Source of the DNA: Nitrospirota bacterium
Lineage (GTDB): Bacteria; Nitrospirota; Nitrospiria; 2-01-FULL-66-17
NCBI GenBank assembly: GCA_040757335.1
Contig: JBFLXB010000029.1
Coordinates: forward strand, 1-50,736
Direction of reading: 5' to 3'
Length of the DNA: 50,736 bases
Shown here: one piece after another, positions 1,116 through 50,736 of the stretch
Position numbering within the stretch: the first letter of the stretch is position 1
How the letters are laid out: every line of letters starts with the position of its first letter
The notes under the pieces: generated by a model
What the model was told of the DNA's origin: nothing
The model's database searches: none
Seen by the model: only the letters and a program-made list of their open reading frames with translations
Translations under genes and position numbers: made by a program

Positions 1116-1425
1116 GCTGCACAGCTGCCGACCAGGGGGGGAACCGACACCGGGGGCGTGGTGCGTCTTTGGCAGGCCGGAACCCGGCGCCCGCGAGGCG
1201 GCAGCCGCTGTCTGAGGCCGTGGGAGACCCGAAAGGCCTGAGGCGCGTGCCTCGGCGGCGTCATCACGATGGGGAATATCCCGATATGAGCTTTATCCAT
1301 GCGCTTCGGTAGAGTCGAGAATGGGCGCGGTAGCCGCAGGTCCGGGGAGTTGCTGTTTCCGCCCGCTTTCGCGTGTTGGCGGTGCCTCAATCCGTCCATG
1401 ACCCCGTTTCCCATCCCCGCTCATC

Positions 1426-1458
<33 letters not shown>

Positions 1459-1481
1459 TCCGACTGGTTTCACGAAAAGGC

Positions 1482-2999
1482 TCACGGACGAGCCCCCACA
1501 TGCACCGTGCGAAGCCGCAGGACCCCCAAAGCACCGAAGATCATGTCGTCGTCGAAACGGCGGGTGCCTCGCGTGGGCACCTTGTGGCGACGCCGAAGGA
1601 AGTGCCGGACGCGTTCGTAGACGTGATTGTCCACCGCCCGATACGCGAAGAGACGTGTCCCATAGCTGAAGTAGTTGGACCAGCCTCTGAGCAGCCGGTT
1701 GAGCTCCTTGCCCACCGTGGGCCAGGGGCTCTGGTTGCTGGGTCGCAGGATGGTCCGGACCTTCCCCTTCAGTTGCTGGACCGACTTCTTCGACGGTTTC
1801 GCGGCCAGATACCAGTGACCATCCTTGCGGTACCGCTCCGGCCCGAAGGTGTACCCGAGAAAGTCGAAGTGTTCCTCGCGCGCGTTTCGGATGCACGTCT
1901 TGGTGTCGTTGAGGGTCAGACCGATCGCCGCCAGCACGCATCGCGTCCACGCCAGAGCGGGTTCCGCCTTCCCCCGACTGAGGATGACGAAGTCGTCCGC
2001 GTAGGCCACGAGCCGGGCGGCGAACTCCCGGTCCTTGCCTCGCTCCTGAAAGACCCGGAGGAATCGGTTCAGATAGATGTTCGCGAGCAGCGGGCTGATG
2101 ACGCCGCCTTGCGGCGTTCCCCTCCGGCTGCCCTTCCCACCTGTCATGCGCCGATGGCCTCGTTCGTCCGTTTCCTCCACGGGCGTCTGGAGCCACGCCT
2201 TGATCAACCGCAGCATCTTCCCGTCCGACACGCGTCGGGCGATGGACGGCATCAGTTGATCATGGGGAATGGTGTCGAGGTACTGGCTCAGGTCTGCGTC
2301 CACCACCTCCGTGTATCCGTCGCACAACGCTCGGTGCACTCGCTCCACGGCGCCCCCCGCGCTGCGGCCCTCTCGGTAGCCAAACGCGCTGTCGCTCAAG
2401 TCCGCCTCGAAGATCGGTTCCAACACCAGCTTGGCGGCGGTCTGCGCCACGCGATCCCGAATCGTCGGGATCCCGAGCGGCCGCTGCCCGCCTCCCGGCT
2501 TCGGGATCAGCACCCGTCGCACCGGACTGGGCTGGTACGTCTCCGTTCGCAGTGCCTCCCTCAGACTCGCGAGCCACTCCTCGAGCCCCGCCGCCTCGAT
2601 GTCGCCGAACGTCATCCCGTCCACGCCCGGCGCGCCCCCGTTGCTGCGGGCCAGCCGATAGGCGTGGTCCAAGATGTCCTCCCGGTACACCTTGTCGTAG
2701 AGCAGGTAGAAGCGGAACGCTGGTGCTGCCTTCGCCTTCTCATACAGTCCCTTCCGCAGGTTCCGGATCTTTTCCGGGGTTTTCAGACTCACGTCAATCC
2801 CCTCATCCTCTGCCCGCCTCCGGGCCACCCAGAAGTGAGGCCCCCGTCCCTCCACCCTCGTTACGGGCTTCATCGGTACCATGGGCCTCTCCGACTCCCG
2901 CCCGGGCCGCCAGCTCTCCCGGCGTCGGCCGTCGCGACCGGCCATCCCAAACGGGTCTCCCACGTTGCCCAGTCGACCTTCACCGCGTGCGGTCCCCAT
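1482..2999 (-). CDS. ltrA: Group II intron reverse transcriptase/maturase
   Basis: Multifunctional intron-encoded protein that helps the intron RNA splice and copies it into DNA at new sites. The RT palm is at about residues 160-345: DADLS with the first catalytic Asp (235), TPQGGVISPLLANIYLN (295-311) and the YADD box (333-336). The thumb/maturase domain X carries GWSNYFSYG near residue 420. No HNH endonuclease signature is evident after domain X. The start is uncertain: the frame is open to 2999, but a start at the Met of MVPMKP (about 2882) fits the usual N-terminus (KPVTRVEGRGP) better. The ORF is intact, so the intron may be active. Confidence 0.92.
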   Translation of the reverse strand: MGTARGEGRLGNVGDPFGMAGRDGRRRESWRPGRESERPMVPMKPVTRVEGRGPHFWVARRRAEDEGIDVSLKTPEKIRNLRKGLYEKAKAAPAFRFYLLYDKVYREDILDHAYRLARSNGGAPGVDGMTFGDIEAAGLEEWLASLREALRTETYQPSPVRRVLIPKPGGGQRPLGIPTIRDRVAQTAAKLVLEPIFEADLSDSAFGYREGRSAGGAVERVHRALCDGYTEVVDADLSQYLDTIPHDQLMPSIARRVSDGKMLRLIKAWLQTPVEETDERGHRRMTGGKGSRRGTPQGGVISPLLANIYLNRFLRVFQERGKDREFAARLVAYADDFVILSRGKAEPALAWTRCVLAAIGLTLNDTKTCIRNAREEHFDFLGYTFGPERYRKDGHWYLAAKPSKKSVQQLKGKVRTILRPSNQSPWPTVGKELNRLLRGWSNYFSYGTRLFAYRAVDNHVYERVRHFLRRRHKVPTRGTRRFDDDMIFGALGVLRLRTVHVGARP

Positions 3000-3288
3000 T
3001 ACCCCGGCGAGCCGGAGCGCAGCGTGTCTCGGTTGCTCTGCACTCCGCAGCGGCCTTCTCCGTTATTCAGGCGGATCGGCACTCGCATCGTCACTTTCGA
3101 GGCCTGCTCAGGGTTCACTCGCGTTACGGCCCGCGGCTTCGCTCACCCACCCGCGGTGGGCTTCACCCAGGGCTTCACGTGCGACGTGCCTGGGTCGCTT
3201 CCGGGGTGCACCGAGAACTCCCCAGATGAGACTTTCACTCATGCGTCGACTGGACCTTCTTCGTGGCGCACTGAATAATGCGGGCTAA

Positions 3289-43389: not shown

Positions 43390-45363
43390 ATGTCGGCTGA
43401 CATGCGCCAGATCACGCTGACGTTCCCCGACGGCACGACCAAGGCATACCCGGCCGGGGTCACCCCTTTGACCGTGATCGAGGGACTGAATCCTGCGGTC
43501 AGGGCCCGCGCGGTGTCGCTCAGGGTGAACGGTAAACCGTCCGACTTGCACACGCCGCTGACCCACGACGCGCAGGTCGAGCCGCTGGCCTTCGATACCC
43601 CCGACGGGCGCGAGGTGTTTCGTCACAGCTCGGCGCACTTGATGGCGCAGGCCGTCAAGCGCCTGTTCCCCGGCGTCAAGCTGGCGATCGGTCCCGCGAT
43701 CGAAGACGGCTTTTATTACGACTTCGACTACGACCGCCCCCTGACTCCCGAGGACCTCGACAAGATCGAGACCACGATGCAAGAGTTGGCCCGGACCGGG
43801 TGGTCGATCGAGCGCCAGGAGATGCCCAAGGCGGACGCGATCCGGTTCTTTCGCGAGCGCGGTGAGCCGTATAAGGTCGAAATCATCGAAGGGATCCCCG
43901 ACCCCACCGTCAGCCTGTACAAACAAGGCGAGTTTATTGACCTGTGCGAAGGACCGCACCTGGCCACCACCGCCGGGGTCGCGCATTTCAAGCTCATGAC
44001 CGTCGCAGGCGCGTACTGGCGCGGCGATGAAAAGAACCGGATGTTGCAACGGATTTACGGCACGTCGTTCCCCACCCGCGAAGAGCTCGACGCGCACCTC
44101 GCCCGGTTGGAAGAAGCCAAACGCCGCGACCACCGCAAACTGGGCCGCGATCTGGATCTGTTTTCCATGACCGACGAGGTGGGCCCGGGCCTGGTGTTGT
44201 GGCACCCCAAGGGCGCCCGCATCCGCCGGACCATCGAAGACTTCTGGCGAGGGGAACACGACCGCGCGGGGTACGACATGGTCTACAGCCCTCACGTGGC
44301 CAAGCTCGAGCTGTGGAGGCGCAGCGGCCACGTGGACTTTTATCGCGACAACATGTTCGCGCCCATGGACGTTGAAGGGATCGAATACGAACTCAAGCCC
44401 ATGAACTGCCCCTTCCACATCATGGTCTACAGGTCGCATCCCCGGAGCTACCGAGACCTGCCGGTGCGATTCGCCGAACTCGGCACGGTCTATCGCTTCG
44501 AACGCTCGGGCGTCCTGCACGGCTTGTTGCGGGTGCGCGGGTTTACGCAGGACGACGCGCATCTGTTTTGCCGCCCCGACCAGCTCCAGCACGAAATCAC
44601 CACCGTGCTGGAGTTCGTGACCGCCATGCTGACCACCTTCGGCTTCCCGGATTTCGACATCTACCTCTCCACGCGCCCCGAGAAATACGTGGGCGCGTTG
44701 GATCGCTGGGACCTTGCCACGTCGGCGTTGGAGGGCGCGCTCCGCGCCAAGGGTCTGGCCTATCAGGTCGACCCCGGTGAAGGCGTGTTCTACGGTCCCA
44801 AGATCGACATCAAGATCAAAGACATCCTCAAGCGGTCCTGGCAGTGCGCGACGATCCAGGTGGACTTCAATTTCCCCGAGCGGTTCGGGCTGGTCTACAC
44901 CGGCGAAGACGGAAAGGAGCACCAGCCGATCATGATCCATCGAGCCCTGCTCGGCTCGCTCGAACGGTTCCTCGGCGTGTTGATCGAGCACTACGGCGGC
45001 GCGTTCCCGACCTGGCTCGCGCCCACGCAAGCGATCGTGTTGCCTATCGCGGATCGTGTACACCCCTTTGCGCGCGAGGTCGCGGGCACGTTGGCCGGCC
45101 GAGGCATCCGGGCCGAGGTGGACGCCCGCAACGAGAAGATCGGGCTGAAGATCCGCGAGGCCCAGTTGGCCAAGATCCCGTACATGCTGGTGGTCGGCGA
45201 CCGCGAGGCCGCAGCAGGCACCGTGTCGGTTCGCCGGCGCGACGGCCAGGAACTGCCCGGCCAGCCGGTTTCGGCAGTGGCTGAGCACATCGAATCGGAA
45301 ATTCGTTCGCGTGGAGCCGGCCCCTCCACGGGAACAGGACCCGTGCCCAAGGGCCGGGCGTGA
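43390..45363 (+). CDS. thrS: Threonyl-tRNA synthetase
   Basis: Class II synthetase with zinc-assisted threonine recognition and editing. 657 aa: TGS domain (about 5-65; LTFPDGTTKAYPAG), editing domain (about 66-240; HSSAHLMAQAVKRLFPG and LCEGPH), catalytic core (about 250-540; YELKPMNCPFHIMVY, RVRGFTQDDAHLFC, PIMIHRALLGSLERFLG, giving the Cys and two His of the zinc site), and the anticodon-binding domain (about 550-645). Starts at ATG 43390 or 43402; no strong ribosome-binding site is seen. Heads the thrS-infC-rpmI-rplT cluster. No T-box leader was seen upstream. Confidence 0.97.
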   Translation: MSADMRQITLTFPDGTTKAYPAGVTPLTVIEGLNPAVRARAVSLRVNGKPSDLHTPLTHDAQVEPLAFDTPDGREVFRHSSAHLMAQAVKRLFPGVKLAIGPAIEDGFYYDFDYDRPLTPEDLDKIETTMQELARTGWSIERQEMPKADAIRFFRERGEPYKVEIIEGIPDPTVSLYKQGEFIDLCEGPHLATTAGVAHFKLMTVAGAYWRGDEKNRMLQRIYGTSFPTREELDAHLARLEEAKRRDHRKLGRDLDLFSMTDEVGPGLVLWHPKGARIRRTIEDFWRGEHDRAGYDMVYSPHVAKLELWRRSGHVDFYRDNMFAPMDVEGIEYELKPMNCPFHIMVYRSHPRSYRDLPVRFAELGTVYRFERSGVLHGLLRVRGFTQDDAHLFCRPDQLQHEITTVLEFVTAMLTTFGFPDFDIYLSTRPEKYVGALDRWDLATSALEGALRAKGLAYQVDPGEGVFYGPKIDIKIKDILKRSWQCATIQVDFNFPERFGLVYTGEDGKEHQPIMIHRALLGSLERFLGVLIEHYGGAFPTWLAPTQAIVLPIADRVHPFAREVAGTLAGRGIRAEVDARNEKIGLKIREAQLAKIPYMLVVGDREAAAGTVSVRRRDGQELPGQPVSAVAEHIESEIRSRGAGPSTGTGPVPKGRA

Positions 45364-45425: not shown

Positions 45426-45929
45426 ATCGCAGGGAAACTTCGGGTTAACCAGGAAATTCGAATCCGCGAAGTGCGGGTCATCGGCCCCAACTCCGAGCAG
45501 CTCGGGATCCTTGCGATCGGCGACGCGCTCAAACGCGCCGAAGAAGCGGGGTTGGACCTCGTGGAAGTCGCGCCGACCGCCAGCCCTCCCGTGTGCCGGA
45601 TCATCGACTACGGGAAATACCGGTACGAGCAGGCGAAGAAACAACACGGGGCCAAGCAGAAATCCGCGCAGCTCAAGGAGGTCAAGCTCCGCCCCTTCAC
45701 CGACACGCACGACCTTGAGTTCAAGACGCGCCACGCGCGCGACTTCCTGGCCGAGGGACACAAGGTGAAGATCACCGTGATGTTCCGGGGCCGCGAGATG
45801 GCGCACCAGGAAGCGGGGCGGAACGTGCTGGCCAAGGTGATCGAGCAGTTGGGATCCGCAGCGCAGGTCGAACAGCAGCCGCGGATGGAGGGTCGGAACA
45901 TGAGTATCTTGCTGGCGCCCAAACACTGA
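45426..45929 (+). CDS. infC: Translation initiation factor IF-3 (ATC start)
   Basis: Prevents premature subunit joining and checks the start codon. From ATC at 45426 the frame reads (I)AGKLRVNQEIRIREVRVIGP, the expected IF-3 N-terminus, so the GTG at 45471 is too late by 15 residues. 167 aa: N-domain with GPNSEQLGILAIGDALKRAE and linker YEQAKKQ, then the C-domain (VKLRPFTDTHDLEFKTRHAR, FLAEGHKVKITVMFRGREMA). A rare start codon (AUU in E. coli) is the known basis of IF-3 autoregulation; ATC probably serves the same purpose here. Confidence 0.95.
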   Translation: MAGKLRVNQEIRIREVRVIGPNSEQLGILAIGDALKRAEEAGLDLVEVAPTASPPVCRIIDYGKYRYEQAKKQHGAKQKSAQLKEVKLRPFTDTHDLEFKTRHARDFLAEGHKVKITVMFRGREMAHQEAGRNVLAKVIEQLGSAAQVEQQPRMEGRNMSILLAPKH

Positions 45930-45940
45930 AAGGAACCACG

Positions 45941-46159
45941 ATGCCACGAACGGGAAAAAAGATGAAAACACACCGGGGCGCGCACAAGCGGTTTCGGACC
46001 ACGGGGTCGGGGAAGATCGTCCGCAAGCGCTCGGGCAAGCGCCACCTCTTGAGCCACAAGAGCGCGCGTCGAAAACGCGGCTACAGCCTGCCCGCGGTGC
46101 TCAGCCCCGCGCAGCAGGACATGATCAAGCGTCTACTTCCCTACGGGGGAAAGACCTAA
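45941..46159 (+). CDS. rpmI: 50S ribosomal protein L35
   Basis: 72 aa, basic. KMKTHRGAHKRFRTTGSGKI and HLLSHKSARRKRGY are the L35 signatures. The start MPRTGKKMKTHRG has a few more residues than the usual MPKMKTHRG; the ATG at 45962 is an alternative, but an AAAGGAA ribosome-binding site supports 45941. Lies between infC and rplT. Confidence 0.96.
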   Translation: MPRTGKKMKTHRGAHKRFRTTGSGKIVRKRSGKRHLLSHKSARRKRGYSLPAVLSPAQQDMIKRLLPYGGKT

Positions 46160-46560: not shown

Positions 46561-46582
46561 CCGGACGGATTGGGAAACTTGA

Positions 46583-46612
46583 GAGGGGCGCGCAAGCGCC
46601 CCTCTTCGTTTT
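46583..46612 (+). terminator. Rho-independent terminator of thrS-infC-rpmI-rplT
   Basis: Stem GAGGGGCGC / GCGCCCCTC (9 bp), loop GCAA, then TTCGTTTTT. It ends at the base next to the pheT stop, so it separates convergent operons; the minus-strand side lacks a good T-tract. Confidence 0.9.
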
Positions 46613-48301
46613 TCAGGATTGAGAAATGAGCGGGTCCAGGGCCAGATCAAATGCTGCGCACGGCATGCCGATGCCCCAGACTTCCAGGACCGACGGCGAC
46701 ACTTCGCCGATCACGCCGATCGGCTGATCGTCTATGAGAATGGTTCCCGCGCGGCCGTCGATGAAAGTCGGGTGCTGGACCGGGTCGAGACGATAGTTCA
46801 CATTCAGGGCGTAACAGAGATTTTCCAACGCAGCGTGGACTTCGGAAAACGCAGCCTCCGCATGAGCGATCAGCACGGCGGCTCGCATGTCCGTTCGACA
46901 ACCCACTTCTGCGGCGGGGTCGACGGTCACGGCCTCGCCCACCTCGAACACCCGATGGGGATACACCGCCTTGGAGCTGGCCGCCTCCACGCGAAGCAGC
47001 GACGCCAGCAAATGGGGACGGAGCACCGCGAAGGTTTCGACCATGGGATTGTCCACCTCGACCAACCCACTTTCGACCGTCCGATCACCCATTCGCTCCA
47101 CCACCTCGTGCCGCGAGGTAAGGATGTTGTCCATGGTTTCCTGGAAGCCCAACCCGGTCAGGAGCTCGCGTACGCGGTCCGCATAGCGCTCGATCGCCGA
47201 CAGTGCGCCCACCGTGAACTGGCCCGGCATTTCGGGCGCGAACGAGTCGTAGCCGCGCGCGATGGCGATGTCTTCGACGATGTCGATGGGGTGCAGGATG
47301 TCGTCGCGGTGAGACGGAGGCGTGACCTTCAGGGTCGGACCCGATCCTGACACGCGATGGCCATATCCGGTGAGGAGGCGACCCGCCTCCGGCGGCCGGA
47401 TCGACTCACCCAGCACCTGCTCGATCAAGTTCAACGGAACGGAGATGGCTTGGGTGATCTCCCGCGGCGTGATTATCTTGCGTCCCATGGGCGTGGCCCA
47501 GGGGTAGTCGATGGTCACGGGTTCGACCGTTGCGCCGCGATCAGCCAGGTTGGCGGCCCAGATATTCACGGCTAGGACCACCATGCGCAGATCCGTGCCC
47601 GTGACTTCGACCAAGAGATCGTCATCACCCACCGCGACCGCGCCCAGGGCTTGGCTGTTGATGATCGGCGGGAACGAGAGGACCTCCCCGCGCGCATCGA
47701 CCAACAACGGGTACCGCGGGCTGTCGGCGATGATCTTGCCGTATGCCATGCCCTTGGGATGTTCGGCCAGAATTTCGCGCAGGGTCATGGTCCGGTCAAC
47801 GCCCAGCGGCACGAAACTGGCCTCATCAGGCGCTGAGGTCGTGTACGACACCGGAAAAACGATTTTCTGCAGCGGGTACAGGCCGATGGACACGGTCTGA
47901 CGCTTGCGGCCGTACAACTCGGCGAGCTTCTCCTGCGTCTGGATGAACTGTGTGAGCAGCGTGTCCGTCACTCCGACATTGCGCGCCACGCAGGCCCCGA
48001 TGTAGGGCCGCACCTGACGGACGTCGGCCGTCACCTTGATGCGGTGCGCGCTCGACGGCCGAGCTGCCCTTCGCGGCGGCTTCGACGGCTTGATCGGCCG
48101 CAAGTGCCGCGCGATCCCTTCCACGCACCACAGATCCGGTCGGTTCGTATCGTTCAGCTCGATGCGCAACTCGCCAGTGGCTTCGACATACTCCTTCAAT
48201 TCGCCTTTGACCAGAGAAAGCGAGGATTCGAGTTGCGCAGGGGTGAACTGTTTGTTGGCAAGGGCTTCGAGATCGGACTTCAGAACTGTAATAGTAGGCA
48301 T
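46613..48301 (-). CDS. pheT: Phenylalanyl-tRNA synthetase beta subunit, archaeal type
   Basis: 562 aa against about 800 for the bacterial beta chain; the bacterial tRNA-binding and C-terminal anticodon-binding extensions are missing. MPTITVLKSDLEAL at the start and ELNDTNRPDLWCVEGIARHL (48-67) are archaeal/eukaryotic-genre signatures. B3/B4-like editing region at about 110-265, B5 at about 285-350 (TPREITQAISVPLNLIEQVL), then the catalytic-like core with DIVEDIAIARGYDSF. Six bases after the pheS stop. With pheS it forms the (alpha-beta)2 enzyme that charges tRNA-Phe. No bacterial-type copy is in the window. Confidence 0.94.
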   Translation of the reverse strand: MPTITVLKSDLEALANKQFTPAQLESSLSLVKGELKEYVEATGELRIELNDTNRPDLWCVEGIARHLRPIKPSKPPRRAARPSSAHRIKVTADVRQVRPYIGACVARNVGVTDTLLTQFIQTQEKLAELYGRKRQTVSIGLYPLQKIVFPVSYTTSAPDEASFVPLGVDRTMTLREILAEHPKGMAYGKIIADSPRYPLLVDARGEVLSFPPIINSQALGAVAVGDDDLLVEVTGTDLRMVVLAVNIWAANLADRGATVEPVTIDYPWATPMGRKIITPREITQAISVPLNLIEQVLGESIRPPEAGRLLTGYGHRVSGSGPTLKVTPPSHRDDILHPIDIVEDIAIARGYDSFAPEMPGQFTVGALSAIERYADRVRELLTGLGFQETMDNILTSRHEVVERMGDRTVESGLVEVDNPMVETFAVLRPHLLASLLRVEAASSKAVYPHRVFEVGEAVTVDPAAEVGCRTDMRAAVLIAHAEAAFSEVHAALENLCYALNVNYRLDPVQHPTFIDGRAGTILIDDQPIGVIGEVSPSVLEVWGIGMPCAAFDLALDPLISQS

Positions 48302-48307
48302 GTCGTA

Positions 48308-49879
48308 CTACAAGGTTGCTGTAGCGCGGTGGGCGCGAAGCTGTTCAAGGTCTGGCGTGAAGAGATCCCGGATGTCCGATAACCCCAGCGCGGTCATCGC
48401 CATCCGATCCAACCCCAACCCCCAGGCAATGACAGGGACTTTCACCCCCAACGGTCGCGTGACCTCCGGTCGGAACAGGCCTGCACCGCCCAGTTCCATC
48501 CAGCCCAGCTTGGGGTGCCTGGCGTGCATCTCCACCGAGGGCTCGGTATATGGGAAATACGCGGGGAGGAACTTGACTTCGGGGGCGCGCGCGACTTCTA
48601 CGGCAAACAGGCGCAACAGGCCCAACAACGTCCGGAACGTGATGTCCTCACCCAGCACAATGCCTTCCACCTGAAAAAAGTCCGGCGCGTGCGTGGCGTC
48701 GACCTGATCGTAGCGAAAGCAGCGCGCGATCGAAAAGTACTTGCCCGGAATCTTGGGCCCGCTCGCCATGGTGCGCGCAGAAACGGATGTACCCTGGCTG
48801 CGCAGCACCAGGCGCCTGGCACGTGTGGGGTCGAACGGATAACGCCAACCCACCGAACCCGTGCCCTTGCCGTTCTCATGCGCGCGGGCCACGTTGGTGG
48901 CGAACGGCTCTGAAATCGGCTGTGATTCGCGCGGTTCGCGCACGAAGTACACGTCGTGGATCTCGCGCGCGGGGTGAAACTGCGGCATGAAGAGCGCGTC
49001 CATGTTCCAGAACTCGTTTTCAACCAGCGGACCGCGCATCTCCTCGAAGCCCATGGACACGAGTCGCGTCTTCACTTCATCCAGAAACGCCCGATACGGG
49101 TGTTTGCGCCCGCCGAACACCCGCGCGGGGCGCAATCCGATGTTGTATTTGCGAAACGTCTTGCCGCGCCATGCTCCGTCTTTGAGCAAGTCGGGCGTGA
49201 GCTGTGAGATTTCTTCGGACAACCCGAGGCCGCGCTCGCGAACGGCTCGGGCAAGCGCAGCACCGACGTCGGTCAGCGCGAACGTGCGTTCTTTATCTTC
49301 ATCGATTCGGAAGATCCCCTTAGCCTTACCGCGCTTGGTGAAATGTTGTTCGACCAGACGATCCGACGCAGTCGCGGGTTCGTTCATCACCCGCGATCCT
49401 GCCCGACCCAGTGTTTCAATTTCGTGTTGCAGCGCCTGCAATTCGCCAAGGTCAGCGCCCGGCACGGCCTCCAGCACGCCGCCTTCACCAATACGAATCG
49501 CACCCAGTCCCTTCAGCGTTCCAACCGCGCCGCTGACTTCGTCCGGCTCCAGCCCACGACCCGATCGTAAATCCCCGACGGTCAACCGCTGGCCTTCGGA
49601 GAGCCACTTGAGTATGCGAAGCTCGGGGATCAAATCGGTGGCATAGCGCTTTCCGGCCTCGGCCAGCGCTGCCCGCCGCGTCACGCGCTCGCTCTCTACG
49701 CGGACCGCGCCTTTGGTGAGCAGCCACCCCAGCGCCATGGAGAGCTGCGACGCAGCCAGCCCGCTCCCCTCTCGCAGCGCCACTTCGGATGCCGCGGATT
49801 GATCGCCAAACGCGCGAAACACGCGAGCCTCCAGCGGATGGAGACCATCCAGAAGCGCCTGAATTTCTGGGGAAAGCAT
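48308..49879 (-). CDS. pheS: Phenylalanyl-tRNA synthetase alpha subunit, archaeal type
   Basis: 523 aa from the ATG at 49879, against about 330-350 for the bacterial alpha chain. The N-terminal 200 residues are winged-helix DNA/RNA-binding-like repeats found in archaeal and eukaryotic PheRS (LEARVFRAFGDQSAASEVAL, LRILKWLSEGQRLTVGDLRS). Catalytic core: MGFEEMRGPLVENEFWNMDA, LVLRSQGTSVSART, PGKYFSIARCFRYDQVDATH (motif 2), GIVLGEDITFR and the C-terminal WGLGLDRMAM (motif 3). Promoter at 49888-49916 puts the transcript start close to this ATG. Confidence 0.94.
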   Translation of the reverse strand: MLSPEIQALLDGLHPLEARVFRAFGDQSAASEVALREGSGLAASQLSMALGWLLTKGAVRVESERVTRRAALAEAGKRYATDLIPELRILKWLSEGQRLTVGDLRSGRGLEPDEVSGAVGTLKGLGAIRIGEGGVLEAVPGADLGELQALQHEIETLGRAGSRVMNEPATASDRLVEQHFTKRGKAKGIFRIDEDKERTFALTDVGAALARAVRERGLGLSEEISQLTPDLLKDGAWRGKTFRKYNIGLRPARVFGGRKHPYRAFLDEVKTRLVSMGFEEMRGPLVENEFWNMDALFMPQFHPAREIHDVYFVREPRESQPISEPFATNVARAHENGKGTGSVGWRYPFDPTRARRLVLRSQGTSVSARTMASGPKIPGKYFSIARCFRYDQVDATHAPDFFQVEGIVLGEDITFRTLLGLLRLFAVEVARAPEVKFLPAYFPYTEPSVEMHARHPKLGWMELGGAGLFRPEVTRPLGVKVPVIAWGLGLDRMAMTALGLSDIRDLFTPDLEQLRAHRATATL

Positions 49880-49926: not shown

Positions 49927-49955
49927 TTGAATGCCGGGCTGGCATGTAATAGAAT
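49927..49955 (+). promoter_or_regulatory. Promoter of the small-protein/nucleotidyltransferase pair (probably leaderless)
   Basis: TTGAAT (49927-49932), 17 bp, TAGAAT (49950-49955). Transcription would begin at about 49962, the A of the ATG. No ribosome-binding site is seen. Confidence 0.55.
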
Positions 49956-49961
49956 CCCGCT

Positions 49962-50144
49962 ATGTCCGACGACATTCCCAGATCCCCGCTCACCGGCCGC
50001 CGCGCCAGCAAGTTGGGCGACGAGATGGCGCTTGCCAAAATCGAACACGCGCGGAGCATGACCATGGAGCAGCGCCTCCTCGTATCCCTGGAACTCTCCG
50101 ATATGTGCCTTCTGCTGAGGCGCGAGTGTTCCGACAAGCACTAA
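49962..50144 (+). CDS. Small helical protein paired with a nucleotidyltransferase (second copy)
   Basis: 60 aa, predicted helical after a basic N-terminus (SPLTGRRASKLGDEMALAKI). The segment MTMEQRLLVSLELSDMCLLL followed by RRE resembles [12 protein letters not shown] of the protein at 18055. No known family function. It overlaps the nucleotidyltransferase start by 19 bp, so the two are made together. Divergent from pheST. Confidence 0.7.
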   Translation: MSDDIPRSPLTGRRASKLGDEMALAKIEHARSMTMEQRLLVSLELSDMCLLLRRECSDKH

Positions 50145-50614
50145 AGGACATTGTTCGCCGCCTCGAACAGGCAAAGGCTGATGGCCTGCTCCGCGGGTAT
50201 GCGTTAATCGGCGGACTGGCCACGGGAGCCTGGGGCGCACCGCGCGCGACCCAGGATATCGATTTTGCCGTCGCAACAGCCGGCGACCACCCTAAGCTCG
50301 CTCAGGCGCTCGGGGCCCGATTCCGTTCGGGAGGGCCCGACGATCCTTTACCGGGGGTGTTTACGCTCTCAGTCCAAACCGGAGGCGACTCCATTCCCAT
50401 TCAACTGGTCGTACTCCCGCCTCGGTGGATCGAGATCGTGATGAATCATGTCCAACCGGCAACGATTCTGGACTCATCCGTACCTGTCGTCTCGTGGCAG
50501 GCTCTCGTTCTTCTGAAACTCTACGCCGGTGGACCGCAGGACCTGTCGGACGCGAGAGCGATCCTCGCAGTCAGGCAACCGAAACCTGAGGAGATCAGGG
50601 AGATGTCGAGCCTA
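50126..50614 (+). pseudogene. Nucleotidyltransferase, 3' end cut by an IS element
   Basis: Starts at GTG 50126 and reads VFRQALKDIVRRLEQAKADG, then LIGGLATGAWGAPRATQDID followed by FAV: the same core as the enzyme at 18249 (LVGGLAVGIWVAPRATSDLD). IPIQLVVLP carries hydrophobics but no clear third Asp, and WQALVLLKLYAGGPQDLSDA matches the C-terminal helix. Compared with the intact homologue about 20 residues are missing after position 163, where IS sequence begins (CTAG at 50612-50615). The frame runs on into the IS to the window end. Confidence 0.75.
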
Positions 50615-50736
50615 GGAGCCTGTCCGAGTAATCGGCTTGTGTCGGCTATCCATTTCGTGTATAGTTCGCGGGACCCTTGCGACGAACGGAGGCCCCATGA
50701 GCAAGACGTATCGGCCCTACGAACCGGACCAGGTGT
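50615..50736 (+). mobile_element. Left end of an IS1182-like insertion sequence (runs off window)
   Basis: From about 50615 the sequence GGAGCCTGTCCGAGTAATCG has no counterpart in the nucleotidyltransferase family and is followed 82 bp later by a transposase start. The flanking CTAG could be the target. The right end is outside, so the inverted repeat cannot be confirmed. Confidence 0.65.
50697..50736 (+). CDS. IS1182-family transposase, first 13 residues
   Basis: The ATG at 50697 opens MSKTYRPYEPDQV, the typical first residues of IS1182-type DDE transposases (RPY-x-P-x-Q). A GGAGGCCCC stretch just before may serve as ribosome-binding site. The rest is outside the window, so the family is a judgement from a short stretch. 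Confidence 0.6.
   Translation, partial: MSKTYRPYEPDQV

Follow-up and report, generated by a model that had tools for sequence, protein, structure and literature searches.

An archaeal-type phenylalanyl-tRNA synthetase in Nitrospirota, probably an ancient replacement of the bacterial enzyme beside rplT

By the sequence of both its subunits, the phenylalanyl-tRNA synthetase (PheRS) encoded at the locus described here, in a Nitrospirota bacterium, is of the archaeal/eukaryotic heterotetrameric type, and this PheRS is an old, inherited trait at the level of the phylum rather than a peculiarity of one bacterium. As a whole explanation we favor, with moderate confidence, an ancient replacement of the bacterial pheST, probably at its native site next to rplT, after which the new pair came to face rplT convergently. 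A single origin, this order of events, an archaeal donor and the enzymatic activity itself are what we infer.

The pheS-pheT locus and the type of its products

The locus lies near the end of the window, by which we mean the whole stretch of 50,736 nucleotides that was analyzed (contig JBFLXB010000029.1, assembly GCA_040757335.1), in a host genome of 3.56 Mb that is assembled in 61 contigs and 99% complete. The features are as follows.

43390-45363, + strand: thrS, bacterial-type ThrRS (profile match)
45471-45929, + strand: infC, IF-3 (profile match)
45941-46159, + strand: rpmI, L35, 72 aa
46195-46560, + strand: rplT, L20, last gene of the thrS operon, facing pheT tail to tail (profile match)
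46582-46605, both strands: 10-bp perfect hairpin between rplT and pheT (folding)
46613-48301, - strand: pheT, beta subunit of the archaeal-type PheRS, 562 aa (HMM profiles)
48308-49879, - strand: pheS, alpha subunit of the archaeal-type PheRS, 523 aa, class II catalytic core preceded by an N-terminal extension

The pheS and pheT genes are separated by 6 bp, and thrS-infC-rpmI-rplT faces them end to end across a convergent gap of 52 bp that contains the hairpin. Folding of the hairpin region gave z-scores of -3.3 on one strand and -3.9 on the other, better than 200 of 200 shuffles on either, and a T-run follows on the + side, that of rplT; the hairpin is probably a terminator shared by rplT and pheT. 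For pheS, a TTG six codons upstream of the ATG given in the first-pass annotation is a possible alternative start. Elsewhere in the window, a group II intron occupies 1309-3244 (- strand), in which a reverse transcriptase/maturase ORF (1482-2999; RVT_1, GIIM) lies between a D1-D4 match (3119-3244) and a second intron match (1309-1460). An ORF divergent from pheS (49931-50734, + strand) runs off the contig, has no Pfam or NCBIfam match and may be spurious. The 16S match of the host genome comes in three pieces that cover model positions 9-1228 only (G000:C14:67533-68776, away from contig ends), and insertion, chimera or incomplete assembly are possible causes.

The archaeal genre of both subunits, claimed when the DNA was first annotated, is borne out by profile scores. 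PheT reached 462.9 bits against the NCBIfam model pheT_arch TIGR00471 (cut-off 282.65; residues 1-556), as against 120.3 bits for pheT_bact, which is below the cut-off of 402.65 and confined to model positions 406-694. For PheS, the archaeal alpha model NF003210 gave 560.5 bits (cut-off 350), and since this match spans residues 13-519, it covers the long N-terminal extension; Pfam matches of winged-helix type in that extension (MarR_2, DUF2582) stayed under cut-off. The only Pfam domains of PheT are B5 and CLM, with neither a B8-type long C-terminus nor an EMAP-II-like B2 match, and its 562 aa compare with about 690-810 aa for the bacterial-type beta subunits of related genomes. The motif NDTNRPDLW, already pointed out in the first-pass annotation, occupies residues 50-58, with a core that does not vary among ten diverse relatives. 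Among solved structures, human cytosolic PheRS (3l4g) is closest in sequence, together, for beta, with a Pyrococcus horikoshii fragment (2cxi), and bacterial PheRS chains of known structure score far below both. With the archaeal/eukaryotic enzymes the Nitrospirota one shares a short beta subunit without B8 and an alpha subunit with an N-terminal extension. A chance match is excluded because of the HMM scores together with conservation throughout the class, and neither the scores nor the grouping of the two chains are bacterial.

Residue roles were assigned by alignment together with PMC3275996 or general knowledge. Thirteen catalytic positions of the class II core (e.g. Q403, E405, A485 and R492) are invariant across 67 PheS sequences; among B3/B4 positions aligned to the editing pocket, S209, E232 and T234 are invariant in 71/71 PheT and L200 is kept in 68/71. 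N215, invariant in ten diverse sequences, corresponds to the editing residue Asn217 of P. horikoshii PheRS, which in archaea takes the place of the His used for editing in bacteria (PMC3275996). By homology, the enzyme would activate Phe with ATP and then charge tRNA-Phe, and its B3/B4 site would putatively edit Tyr-tRNA(Phe).

A profile search found no bacterial pheT in the 99%-complete host genome, so that the replacement suggested in the first-pass annotation was not refuted by a bacterial gene elsewhere, and pheS-pheT is predicted to be the host's sole source of a heterotetrameric Phe-tRNA ligase. The second, weak match of that search (C1:432039-432266, within a 649-aa frame) covers model positions 41-123 only and was set aside as probably an EMAP-like domain belonging to a different protein, putatively MetRS. 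Contamination or misassembly that fused archaeal DNA to a bacterial contig has nothing in its favor beyond the initial surprise, and we rejected it as virtually certain to be wrong, since the same genes with the same neighbors recur across dozens of independent assemblies, several of which consist of a single contig.

Distribution in Nitrospirota and the cognate tRNA

The archaeal pheT cut-off was passed by 120 of 127 genomes of the window's class, the remainder being mostly incomplete or fragmented, and by 143 of 255 genomes of the phylum, about half of the sampled Nitrospirota. The bacterial pheT cut-off was passed by 119 of 296 phylum genomes, none of which belongs to the class, and bacterial-type pheT was absent from all of the approximately 110 class genomes sampled for it. 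Outside the class, the archaeal type occurs in groups f12, f13, f16, f19, f20 and f37 (f-numbers are our labels for families and groups; f1 is the family of the window). The trait is thus not limited to this bacterium or its sisters, and its presence throughout the class and in several other Nitrospirota groups means that the event is ancient. The remark of the first-pass annotation that the context did not look spirochaetal was correct, the phylum being Nitrospirota.

Several variants were seen in this survey. Bacterial pheT has two forms in Nitrospirota, one of full length (f14, f17) and one short, which matches model positions 156-798 only and is without the N-terminal part (f15, f21, f26 and many others). 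In one 95%-complete class genome, pheT lies in three pieces and more than one frame (G235:C12:299132-300156), reflecting sequencing error or decay. The f20 loci (L110-L117) encode far more divergent archaeal-type PheT and PheS on long branches and represent a fast-evolving group. In the phylum Armatimonadetes the archaeal type is rare, with 3 of 151 genomes (loci L003, L124 and L125).

The tRNA-Phe genes, located by RF00005 and ARAGORN, are of interest for an enzyme of this type. Host tRNA-Phe (C1:432563) has G34 A35 A36 and A73 together with U20 and U59, which is the bacterial form: the former are common to all domains, U20 and U59 are determinants in E. coli, and yeast and Aeropyrum pernix tRNA-Phe use G20 (PMC9976931). 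The enzyme thus differs from archaeal/eukaryotic cytosolic PheRS in working beside a tRNA-Phe with U20 instead of G20. A U20-specific pattern matched tRNA-Phe in 218 of 292 phylum genomes, among them genomes of either PheRS type, f37 and most archaeal-type families included; f3/g5 gave no match at all, and f2/g2 matched in part. In the f3/g5 and f2/g2 genomes that miss the pattern, position 20 or the loop length would differ, and the tRNA could have followed its enzyme; a tRNA-Phe of the families that miss the pattern was not found within the fetched loci. According to PMC3275996, PheRS of the archaeal/eukaryotic type does not cross-react with bacterial tRNA-Phe, and this reported lack of cross-reaction, combined with a tRNA-Phe of bacterial form, suggests that tRNA recognition by the enzyme may have shifted to serve the U20 tRNA-Phe.

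Gene order, trees and the history of the replacement

The first-pass annotation had placed the pair at the usual pheST site beside rplT, inverted, and both the position and the conservation of the inverted layout in relatives were confirmed in a sample of loci from many families. Among the 45 archaeal-type loci of this sample that contain rplT, pheT adjoins rplT convergently in 43 (33 in the class and 10 outside it, f20 included). The remaining two, both of f37 (L099 and L100), have rplT followed by pheS-pheT on the same strand. The five bacterial-type loci with rplT (f17, f21, f22, f26 and f27) all show the canonical co-directional order rplT-pheS-pheT. These bacterial pairs share genomic place and catalytic role with the archaeal-type ones, but the protein type differs and, save in f37, the orientation is opposite. 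In most of f5 and in f6, f12, f14 and f16, pheST lies away from rplT.

In the explanation that we favor, a bacterial pheST downstream of rplT would be the ancestral state, and an archaeal-type pheST would have replaced it, probably in the native position that f37 would still show, in the ancestor of the class and of several sister groups; later, in the line leading to all other groups, pheST would have become convergent with rplT. The archaeal-type genes of f37, at the canonical site and in the canonical orientation, support replacement at the native site, and the f16 loci count against this explanation, since f16 is the sister of f37 in the PheT tree and has its pheST away from rplT. Replacement in place, as proposed in the first-pass annotation, thus gains from f37, but the second step may not have been a simple local inversion. 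Upstream of pheS in most convergent genomes, and on its strand, lie rpe, rsmB and fmt, often with a gene for an M48 peptidase between rsmB and fmt; pheST in most relatives thus ends an fmt-rsmB-rpe operon converging on rplT, and the flip may have been a relocation to that operon.

The main rival for this second step is that pheST joined the end of the fmt-rsmB-rpe operon, that this operon ended up facing rplT convergently and that the native pheST was lost, the place beside rplT being a mere by-product; we consider this unlikely, though it deserves attention. The order fmt-rsmB-rpe-pheS-pheT is kept in f2, f3, f4, f5, f7 and f8 and partly in f12, f19 and f42, the operon link persists where pheST lies away from rplT (most of f5, f12), and an rsmB-rpe pair unlinked to pheST is found in f37 and in bacterial-type genomes, all of which favors such a relocation. 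However, f1, f13, f20 and f40 retain the convergence of pheT and rplT without rpe beside pheS, and the archaeal-type pheST of f37 sits exactly at the canonical site. In f1, the link of pheST to rsmB-rpe is lost and the rsmB-rpe pair lies on another contig.

The PheT tree comprised 69 rows with human, fungal and P. horikoshii (1-348) sequences as outgroup, i.e. one archaeal PheT and no spirochaete sequence. All bacterial archaeal-type sequences fell on one side (99/96), as tested against this thin outgroup; the first split separated f37 plus f16 (98/85) from all other rows (99/95), and the root was unchanged on dropping either outgroup. The PheS tree did not resolve the deep branching order, and a search of viral contigs, plasmids and phages for archaeal outgroups returned no archaeal-type relatives. 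The window's own class is not one clade in the PheT tree, and Armatimonadota PheT are nested within Nitrospirota. Such nesting would imply that the archaeal-type PheRS was passed on from one bacterial group to another, which is possible, but a Nitrospirota-only clade was not rejected (AU p 0.124). Both the mixed class and the Armatimonadota rows, as well as the much more divergent PheT of f20 (320-390 bits, long branch), would also fit several independent acquisitions, from archaea or from other bacteria, in different Nitrospirota groups. We regard this as very improbable, because f20 is nested and has the same convergent layout, because a Nitrospirota-only clade was not rejected, and because one common gene order is hardly expected as a repeated outcome.

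A tree of ThrS, IF3 and L20, rooted on bacterial-type genomes, placed f37 outside all convergent genomes (99/98), and a topology in which one split divides co-directional from convergent genomes was not rejected (AU p 0.145). In this tree f17, which has the bacterial type in canonical layout, lies as a long branch inside the convergent group; a topology uniting f17 with the remaining bacterial-type rows was marginally rejected (AU p 0.042). The nesting of f17 among archaeal-type groups, together with the short and full-length forms of bacterial pheT, which suggest more than one origin, would be expected if the archaeal type were ancestral in Nitrospirota and the bacterial-type groups had regained a bacterial pheST. 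We think such regain improbable, as the bacterial PheRS type is the usual one in bacteria and the canonical order in five of five bacterial-type loci with rplT is what an ancestral state predicts. With the favored replacement retained, the most inclusive claim, that an archaeal-type enzyme is the sole PheRS in a large part of the phylum, that it replaced the native genes at their site, that f37 is a living intermediate, and that tRNA-Phe kept U20 and U59 while the enzyme changed its recognition, is put forward tentatively, with slightly less than even confidence.

Relation to known systems and implications

Archaeal-type PheRS is known in Spirochaeta, Borrelia and Treponema (Andam and Gogarten 2011, PMC3191353), a paper in which Thermococcales are given as relatives and Nitrospira goes unmentioned. 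The spirochaete enzymes share with the present one a bacterial host and two subunits that are archaeal in type and size, and have served as a synapomorphy of a clade; the phylum is different. Another interdomain replacement of aminoacyl-tRNA synthetases is that of the archaeal TyrRS and TrpRS of CPR bacteria, in which tRNA identity is archaeal too (PMC5370408), whereas the tRNA-Phe here stayed bacterial in form. No published report of an archaeal-type PheRS in Nitrospirota was found in the open-access literature. As the type was already known from spirochaetes, the kind of finding is not new, and we rate the Nitrospirota as a new and large case, of which the layout series and the bacterial-form tRNA are unusual assets.

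Essential aminoacyl-tRNA synthetases serve as phylogenetic markers and as orthogonal tools. With much of the Nitrospirota carrying the PheRS of another domain, bacterial pheT models miss or underscore these genes, and trees of pheS and pheT mislead. The phylum offers a graded series for studying the swap of an essential enzyme, from a bacterial pheST in place through an archaeal-type one in place to an archaeal-type one in convergent orientation, and the combination of a bacterial-form tRNA-Phe with an archaeal-type enzyme makes the orthogonality of PheRS and tRNA directly testable.
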